From: Bolinopsis microptera
Lineage: Eukaryota > Ctenophora > Tentaculata > Lobata > Bolinopsidae
Length of the DNA stretch: 64,000 nucleotides
NCBI RefSeq assembly: GCF_026151205.1
Contig: NC_087080.1
Location: 12,137,837 to 12,201,836 of the forward strand
Reading direction: 5' to 3'
In this document: in pieces, positions 28,401-49,400 of the stretch
How the letters are laid out: each line of letters starts with the position of its first letter
Numbering within the stretch: the stretch's first letter is position 1
Translations under genes and position numbers: made by a program
The notes under the pieces: generated by a model
Databases searched by the model: none
What the model was told of the DNA's origin: nothing
Seen by the model: the letters and a program-made list of their open reading frames with translations, nothing else

Positions 28401-31400
28401 ATGGATTGAGTCTCGTGTTATATAATGAACAGAGTTCAATCTTACCTGGGGACACCAGGCTATTATGTTGATAAACATAAAGATTCGGCAGAATGACAGG
28501 CTGGCTGAGCGCCGCCCCGTAAAGTTCTACTTACTTGTACTTGAAAAGGTCTCCTCCTAGTCGTTGGAGTGGCCTGCACCACATAGTAACTCCTTTCTCC
28601 GGTGTATTAGACCTCTCCAGTGAACCCTGTCTGTAGCTTGTTGTTCTGCATCTTCTATCGTGATGTTATCGACACCTGTGAAGATTGCTGCATCCTCCCG
28701 GACACATGACAACCAGTTTTTCCGAGGTCTACCTCTTGACCTTTCACCATGCTTTGGGATCCAGTGCAGAAGATAGTTGGGTATTCTTTCTTCTGGCATC
28801 CTCACCACATGGCCAAACCATCGGAGTCTAGCTGCTCGTACGAAAGTATCAACAGGGGCGATGTTAGCCCGCTTAAGTACATCAGCATTAGATACATGAT
28901 AAAACCATTTGATTTTCAGGATTCTCCTCAGACATCTGTGATGGAACACCTCAAATCTTTTCATCTGCGTCTGTGTGGTATTCCATACCTCACTTCCATA
29001 AAGCAGTATAGTGAGCACAGCCGCTTTGTAAATCCTGATTTTAGTTGGAGTCTTAATGCTGCGACTGTACCATATACTGCTAAGCTGATAGAATGCCCCA
29101 GAGGCCTTTTGAATTCGAGCTGATAGTTCTTTGTCAATTGTTCCATTCGCACTGATGATTGCACCCAAGTAAGTGAAATTGCTGACCTGCTGTATTGGGA
29201 GACCTTCCACATTGATGTCCATAGTGTCGTCTTTAGAATACGGCCTCTGCGATGCACTTTTGCTGACAACCATGCTCGGTGTTTTGCCAGCATTAATCTT
29301 CAGACCCGCATATGCACTGTATTTGCAGAGAAGGTCAGTGGTTTCCTGCAGCCCCTCTTTTGAGTTATCTAACATGGCCATGTCATCAGCGTAATCAGTG
29401 TCCAAGAGATGTTTCTCTTCTACCCCGGGGGCTGGCAGCTGTAATAAAGCCCCCTTGCTAATGACTTTGTTTAGTTCCATAAGGTATGCCGAAAATTCAA
29501 ACAAAAGTTGAAGACTGGTGGTCCCTGTATATCACCTTGCCCAGTTCCCGAGTTGACATCAAACCAGTCTGTAACCTCTCCATTGACCCTAACAGCACTA
29601 ACTGTGTGAGTGAAGAACGCCTTCATAATTCTAATGTACTTGTCAGGTAAGCCGTAGTGCTGCATACTTCTCCAAATGAACTGCCTGTCAATCGAATCAA
29701 AAGCTGCTTTGAAATCAACAAAATTAATATACAGAGGAATATTATACTCAATGCATTGGTGTATAATACAGCGGAGTGAATAAACCTGGTCAATACATGA
29801 GCGATTCTGTCTAAAACCACTTTGATTCTCCCGGAGAAATTTTTCCATGCCATTGCTAAGTCTCCGCAGGAGTATCATCTGCAGGAGCTTCGAGGCTGTG
29901 GATCTTAACGTAATGCCTCTGTTGTTAGCGCAATGAGAGGTGTCACCTTTCTTTCCAACGATGATAATAACACCTTTGGACCAATCCTCAGGAATCTTCT
30001 CATCTTCCCACACTTTCTTGAACAACACAACTAGTTGATCAACCAACCCATGCTGTCCATACTTAAGTTGCTGGTTGGAATTACCATCCACTCCTGGACT
30101 TTTGTGATTCTTGAGTTTTTTGAGGGCATCAACAATTTCGTTTCTTGTAGGAGCCTCATCCGAATCGGAAAGGTCGTCAAAACTGGGTTGCGGAGGGATG
30201 TTGTCTAGGTCAGAAATATTGGCCTCTTGCGGGGGAGGGTTCAATAGCCTAGAGAAGTGCTCTTTCCACCTTTCTTTCTGGGCATGAGGGTCGGCAATCA
30301 ACTGGCCAGATACGTCTCTAACTGCAGTTGACTGCTTCTTCTTCTTTCCAGATATGACATTGATCTTCTGCCATACCTCACGTTGCTGACCTTTTCTCGC
30401 AGCTTCTTCCAAGTCATTGGCCATTCTACGTGCCCAGTTGTTATCGTCCACCTTGCTACTTTTTTTAAAGAGCTTATTCAATCTAGAATACTCTGACCTG
30501 TTAGCGTTCGAATTAGGGTCTTTACGCTTAAATTCCTTACGGTTCTTCAATAATTCTTTTGTCTTCTGAGATTGGTGCCTGTCCTTCTTTTTTCGAGGTC
30601 TTTGCCCAAGAATTTCCATGGAAACTTGTTGGACAGTTGTCTTGAAGTTGTCCCACATTGATTCCAGGTCAACCTCAGGTTCCAAACAGTCAAATTTGTT
30701 TCTCAGAACAACATTGTATTCGGAAACAAGTGAATGATCACGCAGATGCTCAATAGCAGGAATCTCAAGCTTACGTTCCTGCTTCTTTTTCACTGACATA
30801 AGCTTCATTCTCAGTCGTGCTCTTACCAAATAGTGATCAGACCCAATGTCAGCCCCCCTACAAACTTTTACATTTAGCAAAGAGCCTCCAAACTTCTTAC
30901 TGATACAGATGTGGTCTATTTGGTTTACAGTACGACCATTAGGTGATCTCCACGTACCTTTATGTATATCCTTTTGCTGAAACATAGTGCCACCGATGGT
31001 AAGTTGGTAGGCAATGCAAAAGTCCAACAATCGGGTACCATTGTCATTTGATGAGCTGTGAAGCGAGTGCCCACCAATGACACCTGACATAGAACTGCAG
31101 TCCGATGTGACCTTAGCATTAAGATCACCGAGCAGTAATTTTAAATCATGTCGGGGTAGCTCATCGAATGCACTTGACAACTGCTGGTAGAATTCATCCT
31201 TATCATTATCTGTAGCCCCCTCAGTTGGCGCATATGCCACAACAACAGAGATGTTCAGGTGTTGACTATGCAGCCTTGCACTCAACAAACGGTCAGATAT
31301 TGGTAGATAGGAAATTAATGAATTTTTAATCTTCTTTGAAAGGGTAAGACCGACACCTCGCCTTCTTATACCGTCCATCCTCCCTGAATAAATAAGTAAG

Positions 31401-34400
31401 GAGCCATTATCCAGTAGCTCTGATCCTGTACCAGGCATATGGGTCTCAGTTATACCCAGCAAGTCCAACTTATACTCAGAGATATTCTCTGATAGCTGGA
31501 ACAACTGACTTGAACTACTTGTCAGAGATAATACATTCCATGTCCCAAATGTAAGACCTGTTTTAGAATAATTCGCTGGCTGTTTCTTATTAGAGTCGGA
31601 GTCCACATGGGTGATCTGTGGAGAAATAAATCTGCTACAATGACGTGTTCTCCCAACACTCATCTGGCCGTAAAGTTCATTCTATTTTAATGGGCGCTTA
31701 CCATTGGCATTATATTTACATTATATTTTAGCATACTAAGATTTGTCCCTCGCCTAATCACAATGCCGGCCGGACCCAGAAATGGCCACGATTGTCTTAC
31801 AGTTGTGCCTCACCTTTGTGAACGGGTGATACTCGTAAAATATTTGTTCCATATATTAGGACCGTCGACGAGTCCAACTCGGCGCACGTCCTGGTAGGTT
31901 GTAAACCTACAAGCTTTCTGGAAATATAAATTTACCTCGAACTTTTCCCCAAATTAGAGCAATGTTGTTGCTACTGATTATAATCAGAGAATATGATGAT
32001 TGATGTTTTCAGTCTTACAGTTACAGTGCGGGAAATTATGAAACTATGAGAGGGAGATTTTAAGAAAACCTTGTCATACGTTGTAGACAGTAGACCTGCT
32101 GCGTACGAGTGCGCGGCTGTATCGTGGTTTTTGCCACGATACTTAGTAAAACGACACTGTAATGGGGTTCACGACGTAGTACAAAGAAAAACGTGGATAA
32201 AATACACATTTCTGCTCTCTTAATTACTCTCGTATGCTCGGTGACTCGGTCCCCGTGATCACTTTATTTATAGACACTGATCCTTGTTGTAATTATGGGC
32301 TTATGTCAATCCTTAATCGCAGCTCAGCGTGGCCCTGCAGTGGTCACTGGTCAGTGCACCTAGTGGTGTGTGGTACAACTCGCCGATCTTGCGAGGCGAG
32401 AAGCATTATATTTATTTATATCACGTCGTGACCCCCACGGCCCCACGGTCGTTTGTCTATAGTGTCCTGACGATACAGGGGACGATACAGGCGGGTCATA
32501 CAACGTATATATATATATATATATAGTGCCAAGGATTTAGTACAGTTTAAGGTGCATCCATCATGAGCAGACTGGGTGATCGCTTTGTATTGGCCAACTG
32601 TTCCACCACTTCAATTATTCAAGGTACCAAGTTGCTTAGTAAACAGTAAAGCAGCTCTAAACAATCAACTTGTAGACAGTGAGTCCCATGTAAATGAGCA
32701 TATAGTTTATACTGTTTTAATGAGCGCATACCATTAGTTTAGCTCATTAATATTTGTGCTCTCGCCCAATATCCTGACCCAAAACTAGCCAACGTCTTGC
32801 TTCATCATAATTTGTGTTAGATTTGTACCAAATGCCAAATCCAAGGGGTATTTTGGAGTACTTTGGGGTTATTATGGGCGACTCTATTATGGGGGATTTC
32901 CAAAATCCGCTAAGGCATTCCCCAATATACCCCCAAAATACCTGTGCCTTGACTATGTATTTTTACTGTATACAGATAACATTCTATGTTGTTATATACT
33001 TGTCTTTGATGGCTACGATCACGTGACAATGAGTTATTAACCGTTTCTCCTCACAATGATGCTGGATTCTGAACCAAATCTGCGATAGAGTAGCACTAGC
33101 ATACACTGGTTTTGCAGCAGTGGCGTAACTTAGGGCCCCGCAGACCCCGCTGTGCGGGGGGGGGGGGGGGGGGGGGCGCCGTATAAGGGGGGCGCAATTT
33201 TCCTGAATTTTAGGCCCTTTCACTGAAAAAACGCCTTGTTTGTGTATTTCCCTGTCCAATTTAGCGTTCGGCCGACGCGAAAAAAATATTTGGGGTACCC
33301 TTTTTTGCTTCAGGGGGGCGCAAAAAGCCTTAGGGGGGGGGGGGGGGGGGGGGGGGCGAGAAAAAAAGTACCCGACCTTTTTTTTTTTTTTTAAATTTTT
33401 TTTTAGGGACACAAAAAATTTTAGGGGGGGCGCTTTTTGTCACTGAGCGGAGGGGCGCCAACAGGCAAAGTTACGCCACTGTTTTGCAGAGTACCGTATC
33501 AAAATGGAACAGCGAGGTTTATTGAAAAAAATCGATCTTTTGTTTACTGTTCCACGTTTCCTAGCTTGTAAAGGTTTGGGTATATTAATATATACATGTA
33601 TTTTTCTTAAGTCGCACAATACAATGATATTACTCCATTGCATTTTCAATATCCAGGCATGCCCATATTTGGTCCATTTTTGGTTGTGGACAAATTGTCA
33701 CTCCCAAAAAGCTGGATCCAAGTTCTTGGCTCTTTGCCAAGGTCCTTTCAGTCAGTGTTCTTAGTGAAGAGTACGTTCATTGTAGCTTGTAAACTGTCTG
33801 CAGATTTTAAAGACCCGCTTATGTGTGAACCCCTCCCCCTTAAGACTCAGTTCGTGGATGACAAACGAAGAGGTGTACATAAATTTGTACTTAAGTCATT
33901 TTTAATACACCATAAACTGTTCGTGGAAGACACCCACTACCCAGGATGCTACGACTAAGCTTTGGCATAAAGCTTAGTCCTGCAACCAAACCGAATTAAA
34001 ATTCGGTTTGGACGTTTGGAGGGAGTAAAATTACATTATAAATAAATGTGCAAAATCTATAAGTATAAATGAAGTTAGGACGAATACTGTATTCCCTGTA
34101 TTACAGTCCGCTATGAAGAATGCATATATCCCTGAACAATCGCATATTATCCTCGATAACTCACTTTGTGAGTTTGTGCTAGGGTAAAGATAGGTCAAGA
34201 ATCAATAGTTCCCACAGTCAGACAACGAATGAGTTTAAAAATTCCAACAAAATCTTTATAACATCATTGGTAAAACATTTTCGGTAAAGATAGGTAACTC
34301 TTAATTCTTCGTAGCTTTGCGTCCATCGTTATGATCGTACGATCTTTTATTGAATAAAGTTTACTTTAATTATAATTGGAGGGATTTCGATTGGGCGCAA

Positions 34401-37400: not shown

Positions 37401-40400
37401 CGAACGTGTATATACAGCCAGTCTTATTTTTACCTGGAAAACAAAAAATGTGAACCAGAAAACAGCTGCAGCAGTAAAAGTTGATATTACGACTAAATAA
37501 TATAACGACCAACTCTCTCAGCATCTATCATTAAAAACAAGAGTTCACCTTTCTCAGCTCTTACAATAGCAATACTCTTCTCCTCCACAACTAGTATCTG
37601 TTTAGGTACAAAGAGACTGTCGTATATCTCAGTCACATCAGCTGTCAGTGTGTTTATTAGAGACAACCCGTTATCTGACCCCATCACCACAAACGTGTCT
37701 GAAATTTAATTTCTTATCAACATATCTGAATTATCATAAAAATGTTTACTCTAGCATTAGGAGAATTTAGGAAAACCACGCGATTTAATTTCACGGGAAA
37801 TTAGGAAACACATAGGAGGAAGATAACCATTGATAGGACCAAAAAAAGATTTGGAAACTTAAACGGTAAACATCTTGCAACAAGTAACTCTCCATTTACG
37901 CGGAAGTCAGGAAATATTTATGCGTCAGCTAACTACATACCCCAGAAGTCAGGAAATATTTACAAGTCAGCTAACTACATACCCCAGAAGTCAGGAAATA
38001 TTTACAAGTCAGCTAACTACATACCCCAGAAGTCAGGAAATATTTACAAGTCAGCTAACTACATACCCCAGAAGTCAGGAAATATTTACAAGTCAGCTAA
38101 CTACATACCCCAGAAGTCAGGAAATATTTACAAGTCAGCTAACTACATACCCCAGAAGTCAGGAAATATTTACAAGTCAGCTAACTACATACCCCAGAAG
38201 TCAGGAAATATTTACAAGTCAGCTAACTACATACCCCAGAAGTCAGGAAATATTTACAAGTCAGCTAACTACATACCCCAGAAGTCAGGAAATATTTACA
38301 AGTCAGCTAACTACATACCCCAGAAATCAGGAAATATTTACAAGCCAGCTAACTACATACCCCAGAAATCTGCGCAGTGTATTTTCTGGGGAATATCGCC
38401 CAACACGCGGTCACATCTCCAGTTTGAGAAGTGGGCTAGTTTCCTCTGGAGGGATAATGACGTGCAGTTTTTACTGGTGGGGGCGTGTCCTGAGATTATC
38501 TTCTGGAACTTCAAGTCCTGAAATGTGGACATCATTTCGGATGGATTATTCTCAACTATGGATGAATTTAGAAACAATAGGTTAATTTCTTTGCTCTAAG
38601 CGTTAAAAAGGACCAGTGAATACCACCAAGCGAGCAAAAACAACCATCTCACAAAAAGTGGATATCCACTCTCATGATCTCAACTTGAAAACTAACCTGC
38701 CCCTTCTCTGTAAAGCGAGCTGCTTTCTTAAACCGCTTTTTCCTCCCAATACGAGGCGTAGTCTCTATTATACGATCTGTAAGATCTGCGAATGGTCTGA
38801 GATGGTGGTCGAGCTCGCCCTGCTCATCACATCTCACGTATCTCTTGTAGATCTCACGAAGTAGCTGGAAATATTACTTTTAAGAAGTTTGCTCTTTCAA
38901 CTTTGGCAAGAAGTTTATAGTTGTATTAATTTACTTCACATTGGTTGAGCTGCCAGATGCAGACAGATTTATTCCAATGTGAAGAATCTACGTTACCTGA
39001 TCAATAGTGCGTTCCCTCCTAGCAACAAACTGCGGAGTCTCATACACAGCCTTCTCCCCGTTCATCAGCTTCACCAGTAACACTCTTCTAAAGTGGTCAT
39101 GGTCCGTGTACTCTCCAGAAATCTCAGGTCCGTAGGGCGGGACCGCCTCCTCGTTAAAAACGCGCAGCAGATAGGCATCTTGTTCCGTCTTGTAGGTTAC
39201 TGACGCGTAAATGTGACTCATTTGGGAGAGGAAACAGGTAGGGTCGAACTCGTCGTCTTCTTCTTGGAACACGATGTTTACTATGTCGTTACCTATGTGC
39301 CTCTTTCTCTCCACCTGTGAAATATCGATTGTTAATTTTGTGTTGGAGTCATAAAAGGAAAGAGTGTTGCGCTTGTAATGACAGAGTGTTGTGATGAAAG
39401 GTCTATATGTTGTGTTCAACTATTCGTCAACTGTAACTGTTCATTGTGAAAATGATCGTTGGGATTTCGTATTTAGTATTTACAATCGTAATTGGATATT
39501 CAAAACTTCTACTGTGACTTGAGAAAATCGATTACCAAAGCTATCGTTAGCTTTGATTGGAAAAATCATGAGTTTTGAAAAAAGATCGTGCCTGCTGAGG
39601 GTTATCTTTAGAGAAAGGGAGCATGTTAGCAACGTGGAACATAATGTGTTTCCCTTCCATCACCGTTCTGTAGGTGTGTGTTCCTGTTGTATCTCCTGAA
39701 TTGGGGCGTTAGTTTGTTAAGGGAGACAAATATTATGTTTCTAGAATGGTCATATTTTGCTGTAACGATGACAAATTAGTGCGAAGCAGAGTTAGGAATT
39801 TAGGAACTAGAAATAATAAACCGCATCAACAGTGACAACACTCAACAAGCGTGTACGTACCAAGAAAATAGTGATTCTATAAGTTTGCGCGCACATGATA
39901 GAACGCGCGCACACGATAAAACAACGTGGGGACTACATAAAATTACTTCGCGCGTTCCATTTAAAATCCTGTTCCTCAATTTGGAACGCTTCGTTAATCT
40001 TAAATATGTTAAACCGGCTTAACACGGGCGGAAATAGCTACAAACATCCTAAACATTCGCCTCACGTCAATGACATCCCGCTAAACTAAGAAATTACAGG
40101 GAGCTGACACGGCGGAACGTCTGAAAGGCAGAGAAGGTATCATTAACTTACAAAGAAAATATTTTCGAATGTAAGCGGACACCTGCTGGACGCAGGTTAC
40201 ACTACAGCACATAATATTATATGTACATGATATCACACTGGCTGCGCTCCAACATAACTACTGCTATGCAACTCCGCAACTTTACCAGTATATTCAACTA
40301 TCCAATACACTGTGTGTTTAGGCTTCAGGAGTAGTGGATATCGTGTAAATACACACACACACACGTAAACACACACACACACACACACGTACAAAAGACT

Positions 40401-43400
40401 TTTTAAGAATAATGCAATTATCATACCATGCCTATATTACTGATACAAATGTAGGTGTTATATATATAACTAATGAAGAGAAGGTATGTATGCGATGTTG
40501 TTGTAAATGCTAGTTATAACAACACATACAGATGTCCAACTTTGATTAGTTATGCAGAATACTAGAACACCGAAATGTTTTGAGATTTTTTCCTTTTCAC
40601 CCTTTTGAAAAAAGGCAATAGTGAAAGGTTACGAATGGACGATTTTGCAGAAAAACGTGGATTTTGGAAAACGAGATAGGTGGGTTTAAATATGTCGTGT
40701 GTCCTTCCTTCCTTCCGTTCGTTACCATGCAACGAAAAAGTTGGGCGCGCGCGAGGATTGCTTGCGGAGATGTGATGTTTAGATAGCCTGTGATCTATGA
40801 ATGCGCGGCGCGACTGTGTTTTAATGTATATGATGCATGTAATGTATAATATTACTATTGGGTAATGCGCCCAATTTGTACGTGGCACGCGTAGTGTATT
40901 GAGTATAGTTTACCTTTGCTGATAATTTCTTGAATTACAGATACAAGTTAAGTTCTACGGCAATTGAACTGAATTTGAAGTGTTTCCCGTATTTGATGCA
41001 TAATTTATCAATATTATTACCATGAAGATTGAAGTGAGCTGATTGGAGCTTATACTTAAATTTATAGTAAATGTGAAATGGAAATCTAGCGTCCGCCAAA
41101 ACGAAACAACGGGCGCAATTCTTGTTCTGGGTTAGACTTGATCGTTGTTTTGAAATTATTGATACAACATTTTAAAACTAATGAAGGGGCAATGCGGTTG
41201 TATATGTCTTTGGAAATTTCTCCGTTTTTAATAACCGAAGATCAACAGAAACTGAAATTTTCTAAAAATGTTGAAGCTGACGCAAAATTTGATCACACTT
41301 AGAAGTGAAAGCGAAAGTTAAGATAAGTGTGAAAGCGAAAGTGAAAGACATTACCTTTGACGTCTAAACCTCCTCGGTACTCGTTAAAACCTTTAAGAGC
41401 CACTTTCTCCCCGATCAAGTTTAGAAACTTCTCGAATGAAGGTGTAATATCGTCTGAAAATTGGAAAACTTCACTTCTTAGAAAAATACGAAAATTACAT
41501 GATCTATACGAAATATCCCCAGAAAATACGATATCAACACGATACCAGCTTGTGGCAGGTCTAGACGGCTGACTTGCTGCCTAACGGGTAACGGTTGATG
41601 ACCGAAGTGGGAGTTTCAAACTTTCACAGTAAATAAACAGAACGTTGAAAAAACATGAACCTGAATTGTACTGATACTTGGTAGCAATGTTATTTATGTA
41701 GTCCAGTGTAAAGCATGTGACTGTGGTTTTATGTCGGGAAGACTTGGTTACCTCTGAATATTAGAATGAACAACCATAGAGGTCGTTATATTAATGACAT
41801 TTTCTTTTGTTCTCATTGAATATTTTGTAATATGATTTCTGCTATAATTTATTGGCATTATACCAATCCGCTAGTTGATACTCCCTTGTGGATGGCCGTG
41901 AAAAGCCGAAACTATTCGAGTAACAAGCGGGACACCTCGAGAGACATTGTTTTTATGTGTTCGTGAATCGTGATGACCATCAATCTTAAGATTCTATGGT
42001 GACTGCGGCTCATATCTCAATACCATTATTACTGACTAAAGGTATCAACAATACTTGATGTGATTTCTTTGTTAGTCTTAATGGAGGCGCCTCCTATATC
42101 TTTGTGGTGGCCTACAACTCTTGGTACCACTTATAACTATCTATATTCTATTAGACAGAAGACGTTTCTAGTTTAATTACATAACATTTTCAAAAGTACC
42201 ACAAAGAATTGTGGTAATATTTGTGTCAGAATAATGTGATTTGCAGGTGATAAATTCTGACGTTATAAATTCAGAACATTTGAACACTACTTATAAGATG
42301 TGAGTCGAGTGTACGCTTTAGGAGTGTAGAGTAGTAGAGTTTAGAGTGTAGAGTGTAGAGTGTAGAGTATAAAATAATTGGTTATTATCCGTACATTATT
42401 ACACGTATAATAAACAAAATAACACGAATATCAAACATGTTAAAGTGTTAATTCTATTACTCACTCTAATCCTCAACTTTACACTCTAGAGCGCGTGTGT
42501 AAGCAGTTAGTTAGTCAGTTAGACCAACACAGCCTGTAATTATACGTACTAGCTGCTTTGCGCCTAATTTTCAGTCCACGCACCTGTCACGTGGTGTAGA
42601 GACTGGCTTGTGATTGGCTGTTGCCATGGTCACGTGCTGGCTGACAGCCAATAAAACCACCTTGTTTGCTAGTCAGTATGTCAGCAAGACATCACGTGAT
42701 ACCGTGCTGCAAATTGTTTTTTCCTCAACGCAACAATTTCAAAACCAAGACCGCAGCTAACAAGGTTGGTTGAAACCCTTTAGCCCCCACCCCCCCCAAA
42801 CGGCAAAAAGCGGGCATTTTTTATATACCCTTTTAAATTAAATCATCTTTTATTACATAAAATTTTTAAACCAAAACATCAAACCAAAAAATTTACAAAT
42901 TAAAACACCACCAAAACCAAAAAATTTTTCATTAAAAATCAAAATTAAAAAAAATTTCCCCTTTTAAAAAAAAATTAAATTTTTTATTTTTTAAAACAAC
43001 TTAAACACCACCACAAACCTTTTAAAAAAAAAATTTTTAAATTTTTTCTAAAAAAATCCACTTAAAACAAAAAATTCTTAAATTAAAATTACAAAAATTT
43101 TAAATTTTTTTTGGGCCCCCTTTGCAGGAAGTACAAAACATTGGTAAGGGTTTTGTTAGACAACTGGGCTGTAAAATTTTTAAAAAACCGATTTCTTTTT
43201 TATTGTCAAAACCCCATAACCCTGTGTTGGAGACTGATAGTATATATTAGTTAAAATTATTTTAAATTATAATTATTAATTAATTAATTAGAAGAAACTT
43301 TTTTATTTGACGGGGTTAGTTTTTTAGATTCAGAAACTTTGTAATGTGGAAACCGGAAACCAAACCGTGAGGTCTAAACTAAATAAAATTTGGGAAAGTT

Positions 43401-46400
43401 ATGTACCTTGGTTTAGAAAACCACCACCAAATTTAAAAGATTTTTATTTTTTCCATAGGGAGGTAAAAAAAGGAAAAAAAATTAAAAAAACCGTTTTAAT
43501 TAATTCCTTTTCTGACAATGAGTAAAAAACTCAAAGTGATAATGGAACAAATACACGCCACTTACACAATAAGTTATCCTTATTTTTCTCCCCTTGTGCC
43601 CCTCACACACATTAGATGGATAACATTTCACTGGGTTTACTGTAACATATTATCCCCTCCAAACATTACATTCTTGCATGCGACCACCGAAACGCAAAAA
43701 TTCGCTAATTCTGTATTTCAGCCATCATGTAGTGCCAAAGCACAAGTTTTGGCAACCCGTTTCAAGTGGGTCCAACCCCAAAACCTGACAGATGGTTATA
43801 TCAAGTTCCATATGATCAAAAACATTTTCATTTTAATCAAATTCGTTTTAATTTAAAACACTACCCGCCATGAGAAAAGGGTTGATAATTCCTAAATTCC
43901 TTAAACCAATTTTTCATGCCTGATTGATGCTCCTTGCAAATTGAGATTGTAAGTCCCAAAATTGTTCTATTTTTTAATAGGATTACAAATAAGGGGTGCG
44001 GGTAGAAATTTATTGAGTGTTCTCTACTCCCACCGTAACATACACAAAATGAGCTGCATTTTTATACCTTCAAGGAAGCAAAAACAAAACAGAGAGGGGT
44101 AGTAGAAACAGCTCCCCATGCCATAAGTCTAAATGTTTTTCAGAGATTCAAATAAAGGAGATATCTGTACGAAAGACCGCTGAACTTTTACTAACCCCCC
44201 CCCCCCCCCCCCGGGCCCCCCCTTTCCCCTCCCCCCCCTTACTATTTTTTAGTGGAAAGGGGGGGTTTGATAATTGCGATAGCAAAGGTTAAGGGAGTAC
44301 CACATTGTTACTACTACTACTAAAATGGAAAAAGGGGAATGTTGGTTATTTTCGAAGGAGGGGATTTTGGGGGGTACCCGGTTATCTTATTTAGTCCCTG
44401 CTAATTTGCCTCGTTACATAAAAGACTGTTTTGAACCCCCCCCCTGGGGCGGTACCCGTGTTTACCACTGTTTACCACTTAAACCCACGGGGGACGGATA
44501 GAAATTAAATTATTTATTGAAAGTAAATTTAAGCGAGTATGTAAATCTTATTTTCTTCCAAAATCTCTGTTTACCCTGGTCAAAAAATTTGCACATAATG
44601 TGCACTATATTCCCTTATGCACAAGTACACAGTAAAGGGGCTGCTCCAGGGGGGGCCCTGATCCATTTATTTTTTAACTACAGACTTTTATTTTATTACT
44701 GGGGGTTTTTTGAATGGACTCCCAATATGCGTATAAAATCAGGGATTCATGCTTTTAAAATTAGGGATCTATTAACTCCTCTATTAAATAGTGGTAAGAG
44801 CACAAAGGAGGAGTAGGAGGCACCAAGAAGGAGGAGAAGGGAGAGGTTTAGCTAATAATAATAATAACCACTAAAACCTTTGAAGCAAGATTACAACATT
44901 TCCCCTGAGATTGTCAACATTGAACACAGTGTTATCATGGTTATTCAGACTCCTCTTCAGAGAAAGCTAGATTACTGTTGTAACCAGATTCCAGAATGTC
45001 CCTCACACGGATCTTCCAACAAAAAAACATGGCTTTGTGAATTAAGGCTTAATAGTGTGGAAATACAGAAGAGGAATTGAAGATTCACCGTTCACATGCC
45101 AACTAAAACTAAGTATTAGTTTTCCTATTTTTAGTTCTCACTTGTATATTGGTTTTTTTCCTATTTAAAAAAAAAAGTTCTCACTTGTATATTCGTTTTT
45201 TTCTTCTTTTTTCCACTACTCTAATATTGATAGGTGTCATTATATTAGCGACGTGTCATTATATTATATGTATGTGTTATTCAGTAATTCAGAGACAAAA
45301 AACATAACATTTTCATCATTTATTACTTATAACCTTTATACAGTTTTGCAGAGAAGGATAGTAAAGATCAACATGTACAATAGATATAATTGTAAGAAGT
45401 TACAGGTAACAAAAGAGCGTTTAATTCCCTTCCCTCCGGAAGAAACACACACAACACACGTTTTCTCTTCTCTTCACAACACAGATTGTGTGTAATGTGT
45501 GATAAAAATTACTCCTTCATAATACATATCTTTAGCTGAGTATGTTTGTAGCGGGGGATGCAGTGTGTTATGAGCTACACAAACTGTAAGTATAGTAGAA
45601 GAACCGTCAGTCACCCTGTATCACGCTTATATTACCATGTGTTGTTTTTACACTCATATCTTGTTCATACTATCCTATATTGGGATCGGCACATGGTTCT
45701 GCAGGGGCATCCTAAACGTGCTTTTTTGGGTTGCTACTCAAAAAGAGGGAGTAGGACAAATACATTAGCCAAAATACATAGTACATACAGGTTTTGGATG
45801 AGGAAGGATGGGAATTAAACGTTGTGAAGCGAAATCAGGTGAGAAGTTGAGCTGTTCTCTGGATCAGTGGACTTACATTTAATAGATATTTACATATTTG
45901 GATATGGCTCAATATTTAAATATGCTAATAATTAGATATGCTAAACAGACTTGTATCATGCAATTAAAGTTGTATGTAAGCAGCCTGTGTGTTAGACTGA
46001 TAATTAATACTTTAGACCGCACCTAATTTAACTAACTGACACGTTTCCGGTAAGTTTAAGATTACAGATAGCTTTCATCAGCTCCGAGCGTAGTACACAC
46101 CAATTTGGTACACCCACATTTTGGGTGGTTAGTAGAAGGACATCATGTTCAAATTTGTAATCTTCAGGAGATGCTAGGTTAATGAATCTAGGAATTTCGA
46201 CGTTTCTTGGAAAATATTTCAATTTTAAAACTGTTGACATATGCAATATACAGTGTATAGACTTGGACACTGTAAGGGGGAGGTAGCCAGATTTTTTCTG
46301 ACACGTGACAGCCATTAACAAATCAGCTTCCAGCAGTGACCAATCAAATCTTTGAATTACTGTCATGTGTCAAAACAAATATTGAAACCCCTCCCCAAAC

Positions 46401-49400
46401 CCGGGTTTCCAATTCTACATTAATTAAAGTAGTTTAAAAATTTCCCTGGGAAATGGAATACAATTTTCATTTTACTTACACTTACAGAAGACTACAGAAA
46501 ACAAAAGGTTTACATCTTTTCGGAGTATATTTTTGGTTGCGGTTTTGGAGAGTGAAGGGGAAAAGGAGGTTGAAATCATCTCTACCCCATTCACTGGGGC
46601 ATTTTATCGGGGCAGTTATTGGGACAGGAACTGGGGCTTTATCGGGGCGGGTTTCTGGGACGTTTATCGGCGGTTATCTGGGACATTTATCAAAACAGGA
46701 AATCGGGGGCATTACGGGGGAGGTTCTGGGGCAGGTTTTTGGGGGTAGGTTATCGGGGGCAGGTTATCGGGGAGGTTACGGGGGCAGTTCTGGCAGGTTT
46801 TATCAGGAAAGGGTTATAACTATTTTTTTGGAAAATCCTCACCCTTATACAACAAATGACTTTTTTTTTCACCTACATTCATACGAATGTTCAGATTAAC
46901 AATTAACATGTATTGTATTGAAGTGTGCACAGTGAACAGTGTATTGTCTCGTATCATGTGGACCGTATCTCTGTTTAGCTAATTTATTCGTTACGTTATA
47001 TTTTCTAGGAGCCGCCAAAGCTCCAAAGGAAAATTTAGCAAAGAAATATTTCATTTTTTGTTACCATCTAAATTAGTACAGAAGAGCAACACTAATTTGA
47101 ATACCAATCACAAAAGTGAGGCGCTGTTCCTCCAACTCTTCTTGTACAAATATAATTGTATCAGCTGGTTTGTTACTTATTACTTTATTACAACTACTGG
47201 GTATTTTATTTACTGCTCCTTATAAGGACAGTTTTACAGGGAGCCTGCTAACACTTTGAATTTACTTCAGATTATTCAGAATAATGAACAAATAGAATAT
47301 CTGCTAAGAAAGCACAGAGAATTACTAAGAAAACAATATGATTGAATTATTATTATGAAAAGTAACGCCGTAACAGAGAGGCAAAATCATGACACAGATT
47401 ATATAACATATAATATTATGATAAAATGTTTTAATACCATTTAGATGACCACCTCACTCTTTAACATACGTATTACGTTCGACAACTAAACTAGTTACAT
47501 AACATAATTATGTCTAGAAGTTTCCAGAGAAACCACTTTTCTCTCAAATTTTTAAAATTTCTACATTTTCAGTTCCCCAGCTCATTAAAAGTTCAACACG
47601 GAATCTCGGAATTTTAAAGATTTTCAGTAATTAACACTTATCAAGAGTAAAGTGATATGAGTGCTGTGTGAATATTATCATAACTGAAAATATGTAAGTA
47701 AATTTATACACATTATACTAGGGGATGAGGTTTCGTTAACCTAAAGCTCGTGATGCAGGTGAAATATAAGAGTAATCGCTGAAAAAGAAGAAGAGATCTG
47801 AACCGTATAAGTACACGGGCTCATTCTTCACATCAAATGTTTACAGTTTCACATCGGGCAGTGCAACCTTCACATTTGTAAGCTCTAATATTTTGATGAT
47901 CTTTAAACACTGGCCTCTGAACAATAAATTATCAATGATGTATATTCTGAAGTCTGAACCTTTCAAATAGCCATTACAATCTGAAGTCTGAACCTTTCAA
48001 ATAGCCATTACAATCTGAAGTCTAAACCTTTCAAATAGCCATTACAATTGAGAGCTATTTTTAAATATTTCCCGCGTACCCCTTCTAAATTTAATTTCTT
48101 CAACATCCCTTGTTTTTCAACTGTTCAAGGGGTTTTTAAACATGGAAACATTTAAACACCCCTTGATCCTGTCTACCCCTTTCCCCCAAATACAACCCGT
48201 CTCTATTTAAACTGTCGTCAGCTATCGAAAAAGTGGGCAAATTACATACCGCTTAACTTCCTTCATGTTATAAGCAGCAATTGGCCATTTGGAACTTTTC
48301 AATTATTTAATTCTTTTTCATTGTCTAGGATTAAGGGGGCGAATTACAAAATGTATAACTTATTTCTTTAGGCATAAAAAAAAGGTTTGTCCCCTCATTT
48401 GCGTATGCTATCCGCTGAAACGATTTGTAATAGCACAATTTAAACAAGTCGCTCCTAAATAAGGAGTGGGATGGTGCTACCGGCTTAGTCATCCCTCAAC
48501 TTCCCGTGTACTTATAAGGAGCCGGAAGTGCTACCCCGCCCCCAAATATTAAGGGTTAGAGTGCTAGATTCACCCCAAGTATTGCATAAGTTGTCGTGGA
48601 ACTCGTGAGAATGAAACTGGTGAGTCTGTGAAACTGGTGGGTCTGTGGAGCTGGTGAGTCTGTGAAACTGGTGAGTCTGTGAAACTGGTGAGTCTGTGAA
48701 CTGGTGAGTCTGTGAAACTGGTGAGTCTGTGAAACTGGTGAGTCTGTGAAACTGGTGAGTCTGTGAACTGGTGAGTCTGTGAAACTGGTGAGTCTGTGAA
48801 ACTGGTGAGTCTGTGAAACTGGTGGGTCTGTGGAACTGGTGAGTCTGTGAAAAATCTTTAAACCGGACTATAATACTCTAACAGGTAGCAGATCTATTTA
48901 AATTTTAATAATAATGAAATAATTATACGGTACTTTTATAATGCTCATTAAATCTACGTAGGTCAGTTGTTAACTTTCAGGCGGCAGTGTCAGAGGGAAT
49001 TTGAAGTGACATACGACACATCCCCTCTCTAAAAATAGAACACTTAAAACAGCAGTTTTAACCTTAAACGATGTGTGCTAATTCCTAACTTCCTTAGTTA
49101 CAACTCACTGTTGCAGAGTATTTCGTTATCTGTGCTTTGTCCCTTCTTTCTGTACAGCACCCCAAACTTGAAGTTGATAGCTCCCTGTGAGATTTTAAGA
49201 TTTGATATTACAAAATATTTGGTAGCTAATCATCAGCTCTTTTCTTTGAAGATGTTATTTTTAAATGTTATTTCTGTTGCTTCGTTAGTATTGGCAATCG
49301 AATTTCGTGCAGTGCAGTTCGATGAGTCTTAATATTATCAATTTCATTTCGAGGATCCAACACCTTTATTTGCAAGCCAAGTTTCTTTTAGATGCCAGAA

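Follow-up and report, generated by a model that had tools for sequence, protein, structure and literature searches.

Minisatellite-like tandem duplications of exon-intron boundaries have been described in the Adh3 and globin genes of lancelets, where they affect 5' as well as 3' boundaries and were named mirages; the same report describes them as unstable in length, apparently regularly spliced and a proposed source of new introns (PMC3087553). Further lancelet mirages have been reported in the troponin C and PGBD5 genes (PMC3902484). As far as these two reports describe them, the repeat units measure 10-72 bp in Adh3 and about 150-160 bp in the globin genes (BflGb6 and BflGb9), splice signals are contained in many but not all units, and splicing is said or inferred to be undisturbed (PMC3087553, PMC3902484). 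Repeat units that supply splice sites have also been described in the human IFI6 (6-16) gene, where two downstream units serve as donors according to a paper that cites Turri 1995 (PMC4526556).

An array of the mirage kind is present in a GARNL3-like gene of the ctenophore Bolinopsis microptera, within the window analysed here (a stretch of DNA of 64 kb, to whose positions the coordinates below refer unless a contig is named). Like the lancelet mirages, it is a tandem duplication that spans the exon/intron boundary of a coding gene (in this case one with a Rap_GAP domain) and has splice signals in its units; the cluster is homogenised inside and divergent at its edges (units 3-10 are identical, whereas units 1, 2 and 11 differ), and several genes of the genome are affected, at both 5' and 3' boundaries (at least 14 junctions, at 13 loci). 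Unlike the mirages that the lancelet reports describe, the Bolinopsis array keeps the donor core in every one of its units (11/11) and belongs to a different phylum, and the 14 boundary junctions of this genome, which include both ends of one exon, can be set against the lancelet genes named above. Length instability and undisturbed splicing are features that have been reported for the lancelet mirages. The array has in common with IFI6 that a tandem repeat located where an exon ends provides more than one splice donor; the two differ in that the variants produced from downstream units of IFI6 are described, as far as the source goes, as different isoforms, whereas the later donors of the GARNL3-like array lead to an immediate stop. 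The IFI6 repeat has a unit of 12 bp, and no homology between it and the GARNL3-like array is claimed. The array also resembles intron gain by tandem genomic duplication (of an AG/GT proto-splice-site), in that DNA bearing a splice signal was duplicated in tandem, and differs from it in that an existing intron was lengthened in the GARNL3-like gene rather than a new intron shown.

No report of boundary minisatellites in ctenophores was found in the literature searched (open-licence papers), and the text on the Mnemiopsis genome in PMC11797021 makes no mention of introns. The GARNL3-like array adds to a known kind a case from a phylum for which we found no earlier report. In the literature found, mirages are a feature of lancelets; if they occur at many loci of a ctenophore, an animal distant from lancelets, they would be a more widespread property of animal genomes. 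Two questions would then become countable, namely whether tandem duplication is attracted to splice sites and whether it is a route by which introns grow or originate. The eleven identical donors also present the spliceosome with a choice among equal 5' splice sites, and how it makes that choice could be studied cleanly in this natural setting.

The repeat array and its host gene

Seven modelled exons on the minus strand, running from 49184 down to 37549, form one open frame, and the assembled protein of 357 residues contains a Rap_GAP domain (E 5.1e-52). A genome-wide scan with the Rap_GAP profile gave matches at three of the gene's seven exons, and no match to the CNH model was obtained in the 64-kb window. 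Judged by its sequence, the host gene is a Rap-GAP of putative GARNL3-like type, a name that we take from the Rap_GAP match together with similarity to the human protein around the exon end. Exon F, which borders the array, is a coding exon of 157 nt at 38361-38517 (minus strand); it follows the acceptor CACATTTCAG and ends at the donor GGG/GTATGTAG, with its last 10 nt (GATTTCTGGG) in register with the repeat. The coordinates that the original prediction had assigned to this exon and its donor are right, as is apparent from the TTTCAG ahead of it, the open frame and the phase 1 at its end. Downstream, exon F is joined in phase 1 to exon G (37549-37698, minus strand, acceptor AATTTCAG), and upstream lies exon E (38697-38864, minus strand), which ends at the donor CAG/GTTAGT. 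The donor modelled for exon C, CAG/GCACGA (39584-39594, minus strand), is either a GC donor of poor consensus or a sign that the exon model is off, which leaves the array unaffected.

The array is a 42-bp minisatellite of 11 units at 37903-38370 (minus strand), each with the 5' splice site TTCTGGG/GTATGTAG and the first of them starting within exon F; Tandem Repeats Finder reported 37903-38367 with a period of 42, 11.1 copies, 98% matches and a score of 895. Read in gene orientation, the array has 11 occurrences of the core TTCTGGGGTATGTAG at a constant spacing of 42, and the cores of all donors are identical (11/11), in agreement with the claim of eleven identical 5' splice sites 42 bp apart. 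The first intron bases of the 11 donors run from 38360 and 38318 down to 37940. Donor 1 (GGG/GTATGT) lies at 38355-38363 (minus strand), and donors 2-11 follow on the same strand over 37940-38318, with first intron bases at 38318, 38276, 38234, 38192, 38150, 38108, 38066, 38024, 37982 and 37940. The 42-bp unit corresponds to the last 10 exonic and 32 intronic nucleotides. The repeat had been claimed to have its boundary in the last bases of the exon, and indeed the 10-nt exon end GATTTCTGGG is repeated exactly in unit 2; in units 3-11 it takes the form GACTTCTGGG. Units 3-10 (8/11) are identical to one another, and the remaining units differ from them by 2 bases (unit 1), 1 base (unit 2) and 3 bases (unit 11), all outside the core. 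The variants show a polarity: the exon-like GAT (GATTTC) is found in unit 2 beside the exon and GAC (GACTTC) in units 3-11, and unit 11 is the most divergent. An exon-like variant kept next to the exon, together with a last unit that is the most different, fits homogenisation that started in the middle of the array.

The array occupies about 460 bases of the 662-base intron, and stops occur along it in all three frames read in gene orientation. Past donor 1 the frame reads G-M-stop, with the TAG within 9 nt, so that a TAG is met with any later donor, as had been foreseen; splicing at donors 2-11 is predicted to add 42n nt including the in-frame TAG, and donor 1 is the sole donor of the array that escapes an in-frame stop. 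When a 27-base piece of the unit was searched with up to 3 mismatches in the whole genome (264.65 Mb, 232 contigs), 11 matches were obtained, all of them in the GARNL3-like array and none elsewhere. An interspersed element or introner family is unsupported, since genome-wide the unit piece occurs only at this array and the units at other junctions differ.

The strength of donors was expressed as the energy of the duplex with U1, which is not a trained splice-site score; on this scale the donor of exon F (-8.1 kcal/mol) is the third of the seven modelled donors of the gene (range -4.5 to -9.4). The gene strand has 746 GT sites from 37501 to 49184; 18 of them reach the strength of the exon F donor, and the array donors account for 11 of these. 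The 5' end of U1 is canonical (AUACUUACCUG in L004, the one U1 match inspected among ten). With a core identical to that of the real donor, the array repeats appear to be credible U1 decoys. Donor 1 gains no advantage from sequence alone, since the cores of all eleven donors are identical, and position must decide.

The same gene contains a second donor-bearing array at 48612-48852, in which a 17-bp unit with CTG/GTGAGT is present in about 14 copies on the plus strand, antisense within an intron. It was rejected as a boundary array because its donors are read on the plus strand, antisense to the gene, and lie inside the intron. The window also contains an open frame of 736 codons at 29471-31681 (minus strand), which we take to resemble a retrotransposon endonuclease/reverse transcriptase.

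Boundary arrays at other loci of the genome

The array had been treated in the original prediction as a singular feature of one gene. Limited searching of the genome identified 13 further such junctions at 12 other loci, and a singular device was rejected because the same anatomy recurs. With the GARNL3-like array included, 8 of the 14 boundary junctions are donor-type and 6 are acceptor-type, 8/14 (at 7 loci, again counting the GARNL3-like one) show clear homology, and the number of exonic nucleotides that match the repeat ranges from about 6 to 44.

Arrays of donor words were listed at at least 25 places on contig C1 and the start of C2, and 23 of these were fetched with their flanks, the two left out (C1:36576 and C1:761375) having one common unit. 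In six of the 23 arrays (L014, L020, L021, L023, L026 and L034), the first donor ends an open coding frame, an acceptor lies ahead and exon bases match the unit. These donor arrays include a CATSPERB exon (L026, E 8.3e-7) and an ADAM exon (L034, E 1.3e-9 to ADAM22), a weak resemblance to CCDC40 (L021, E 0.005) and three loci with weak matches only (L014, L020 and L023). A seventh of the 23 belongs to the acceptor type and lies at an exon of HMG-CoA reductase (L017, E 1.6e-9). The units of the other 16 showed no visible coding boundary when inspected by eye; one of these arrays (L028) is intronic, immediately next to an exon of a dynein heavy chain (E 6.1e-8). Reading past the first donor, a stop was encountered within the first unit in five of the six arrays read, L023 being the one without it and L014 and L034 being left out of this reading.

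For the acceptor word TTTTCAG, 12 places were fetched (those left out included C2:1162244, C2:21483828, C3:4671125 and C3:10522198), and three of the 12 arrays sit on exon starts: L053 at an exon coding for a TSP1 domain (E 2.9e-15), L059 at an aminopeptidase N exon (E 4.3e-16) and L056 at an exon recognised as an open frame only. An array with a 52-bp unit containing TTTTCAG was seen both at C2:1162244-1163289 and at C2:1332418-1333671, in opposite orientations. For GGTGTAT, four of at least 8 places were fetched, hand-picked for splice-like units, and two of the four, a count that is no rate, were splice-boundary arrays. One of them (L062) is an acceptor array ahead of an open frame. In the other (L063, G000:C1:25460600-25461750, minus strand), a single importin-9 exon (E 7.3e-17) has arrays at both of its ends: an acceptor array with a 31-bp unit, whose listed matches extend for 2.5 kb or more, and, on the opposite side, a donor array with 8 copies of a 40-bp unit.

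Control arrays of the reversed word TGTATGG were fetched at 6 places among at least 9 (7 distinct units). None of the four with both edges covered (L066, L068, L070 and L071) spans a visible coding boundary, and at the one edge covered of L067 and L069 no coding boundary was seen either. L071 is intronic and lies upstream of an exon, presumably of a gelsolin-like gene, without spanning its acceptor. A reversed-word array is by construction excluded from being a donor array of its word, which makes these controls a check on visual judgement more than on the biology.

Proposed history of the array and use of its donors

The anatomy of the array, its reading frame, the identity of its donors, the polarity of its variants and its recurrence at other loci were observed directly. 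We think it probable that the array is a mirage in the sense of the lancelet reports, a tolerated boundary minisatellite in which donor 1 is used and the other ten are cryptic. In the simplest history, the boundary itself would be the source and would have been copied into the intron: a tandem duplication would have taken the last 10 exon and first 32 intron bases, and slippage or unequal exchange would later have expanded it to 11 units, making the middle ones uniform. The splicing machinery would use donor 1 and in this way define exon F, while donors 2-11 would remain cryptic, either silent or giving rise to little message, and their rare products would stop early and be expected to be degraded. 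An array of this type would be near-neutral: with the exon end and the donor still where they originally were, it would be tolerated. Since downstream repeat units are used as donors in human IFI6, however, the silence of donors 2-11 cannot be assumed.

That the array is functional, whether by means of spare donors that buffer mutation, as a sponge for U1 or as a poison switch whose copy number determines the Rap-GAP level, is in our judgement unlikely, even though the eleven intact donors of ordinary strength and the in-frame stop behind donor 1 would suit it. Each spare donor adds a stop codon and would for this reason buffer poorly, one array in a whole genome would presumably be a weak U1 sponge, and similar arrays are found at unrelated genes. 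The literature bears on both sides: repeat-unit donors are described as used in human IFI6 (PMC4526556) and an intronic minisatellite of C. elegans is reported to be over-represented near alternative splicing regions (PMC4039745), whereas the lancelet mirages are said in their reports not to disturb splicing (PMC3087553, PMC3902484). A role would further be suggested by a predicted hairpin at 38352-38399 (minus strand), whose exonic arm CCCCAGAAA pairs with UUUCUGGGG of donor 1 and would bury this donor. The 48-nt hairpin has a predicted fold of -14.8 kcal/mol (z -2.26, with equally good folds in 8/200 shuffles), and the 48-nt stretches at donors 2 and 3, where the hairpin does not form on their own, have folds of -3.8 and -4.1 kcal/mol. 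Should the hairpin form, decoy donors would be favoured over donor 1, and there would be reason to consider a poison role that is regulated; as a prediction, the hairpin sits badly with the reading of the array as a tolerated mirage. In a local pairing calculation, the predicted openness was 0.09 for donor 1, 0.07 for donor 2, 0.21-0.23 for donors 3-10 and lowest, 0.01, for donor 11, so that the contrast in openness of donor 1 does not hold against all other donors. Moreover, the fold of the 180-nt context is unremarkable (z -0.68), self-complementary repeats could explain why exon and array together fold better than shuffles (z -3.56, 20 shuffles), and the pairing in the hairpin may in part be a consequence of the coding sequence. 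A coding repeat on the plus strand, running through the array and antisense to the exon, was considered on account of a stop-to-stop frame at 37805-38521 (plus strand, 238 codons) with a 14-residue repeat; two plus-strand frames are open, however, and a stop-free 42-bp unit stays open by construction. No Pfam family was matched by the frame at the cut-off (best DUF7717, E 7e-5, at 23.4 bits where 27 are required, and no stretch passed), and on the minus strand the exon comes with splice signals, a phase and a gene that bears a domain; the plus-strand reading, which we hold to be barely conceivable, was rejected. It is very improbable that the array was collapsed, expanded or invented during assembly. 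The genome was assembled with wtdbg and polished with short reads according to its report (PMC10232365), and a lancelet mirage was apparently misassembled in a draft genome (PMC3087553); against an artefact stand the length of about 460 bp, which is short relative to the PacBio reads of more than 70x coverage (PMC10232365), and the same anatomy at other loci. The assembly contains one copy of the array locus, which says little because haplotigs were removed (PMC10232365).

Tandem splice-site words and the birth of minisatellites

We tentatively entertain the possibility that splice junctions are preferred birthplaces (or survivors) of minisatellites, the GARNL3-like array having arisen from junction-linked amplification and not from random duplication; this adds a bias to the tolerated boundary minisatellite and leaves its anatomy uncontradicted. 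Genome-wide, three tandem copies of GGTATGT gave 4069 matches versus 378 for the reversed word, and the corresponding numbers were 3414 versus 1009 for GGTGAGT, 1380 versus 12 for AGGTAAGT and 985 versus 206 for the acceptor word TTTTCAG. These match counts are inflated by long arrays and the control words were few; one of them, the rearranged and composition-matched GGTGTAT, gave 1228 matches (its reverse 1087), which brings the excess to about threefold over that control. A count of separate arrays by eye, covering the initial 17.4 Mb of C1 and resting on the matches listed, gave 18 for GGTATGT, 1 for TGTATGG and 3 for GGTGTAT. As single words in 194 kb, the same sequences differ far less (GGTATGT 36, of which 11 are in the GARNL3-like array, TGTATGG 15 and GGTGTAT 18; GGTGAGT 26 versus TGAGTGG 34; AGGTAAGT 2 versus TGAATGGA 9), and these frequencies, as given, do not explain the excess of donor-word arrays. 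A preference for junctions would also be in line with the importin-9 exon, which has separate arrays at its two ends, whereas the 16/23 donor-word arrays without a coding boundary in the unit count against it. The donor-word excess, if real, goes beyond random placement with tolerance, and a bias in birth or retention would be needed on top.

An unbiased sample, planned beforehand, comprised the window and 13 stretches of 10 kb (194 kb, sampled GC 37.7%) and yielded 92 arrays, the GARNL3-like array itself being included in these counts and in the filtered ones. Comparing real with reversed units, U1-like sites were present in 19 versus 20 at -6 or better, 9 versus 13 at -7 and 7 versus 8 at -8 (Wilcoxon p 0.51), and there was thus no general excess of such sites in minisatellite units among the 92 arrays of the 194-kb sample. 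After a post hoc filter (redundant units removed, periods of 10-100, n = 74) the counts were 10 versus 12 at -6, 6 versus 6 at -7 and 5 versus 1 at -8, and in a post hoc subset with a period of at least 15 and at least 3 copies (n = 24) they were 4 versus 0 at -8. The word counts point to a bias, which the 194-kb sample neither proves nor excludes. A more far-reaching proposal, which we consider doubtful, is that the splice junctions of this ctenophore are minisatellite hot spots, in which the boundaries of hundreds of genes have been amplified with their signal kept, sometimes at both ends of an exon. The outcome would be a permanent reservoir of alternative donors and acceptors and of introns that could newly arise, to which the GARNL3-like array would belong as one product.

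Twelve of the larger arrays in the random sample were inspected by eye, and none had a convincing coding boundary in its unit. An open frame at L037:5690, which matched nothing in Pfam or PDB, extends into the array and has a weak candidate donor, and at L038:1948 a coding repeat ends at a possible donor that it does not include. The same 331-bp tandem repeat, in several copies each, was present at L038 (C1:10.0 Mb) and L049 (C11:7.0 Mb), in the manner of a dispersed satellite-like family.
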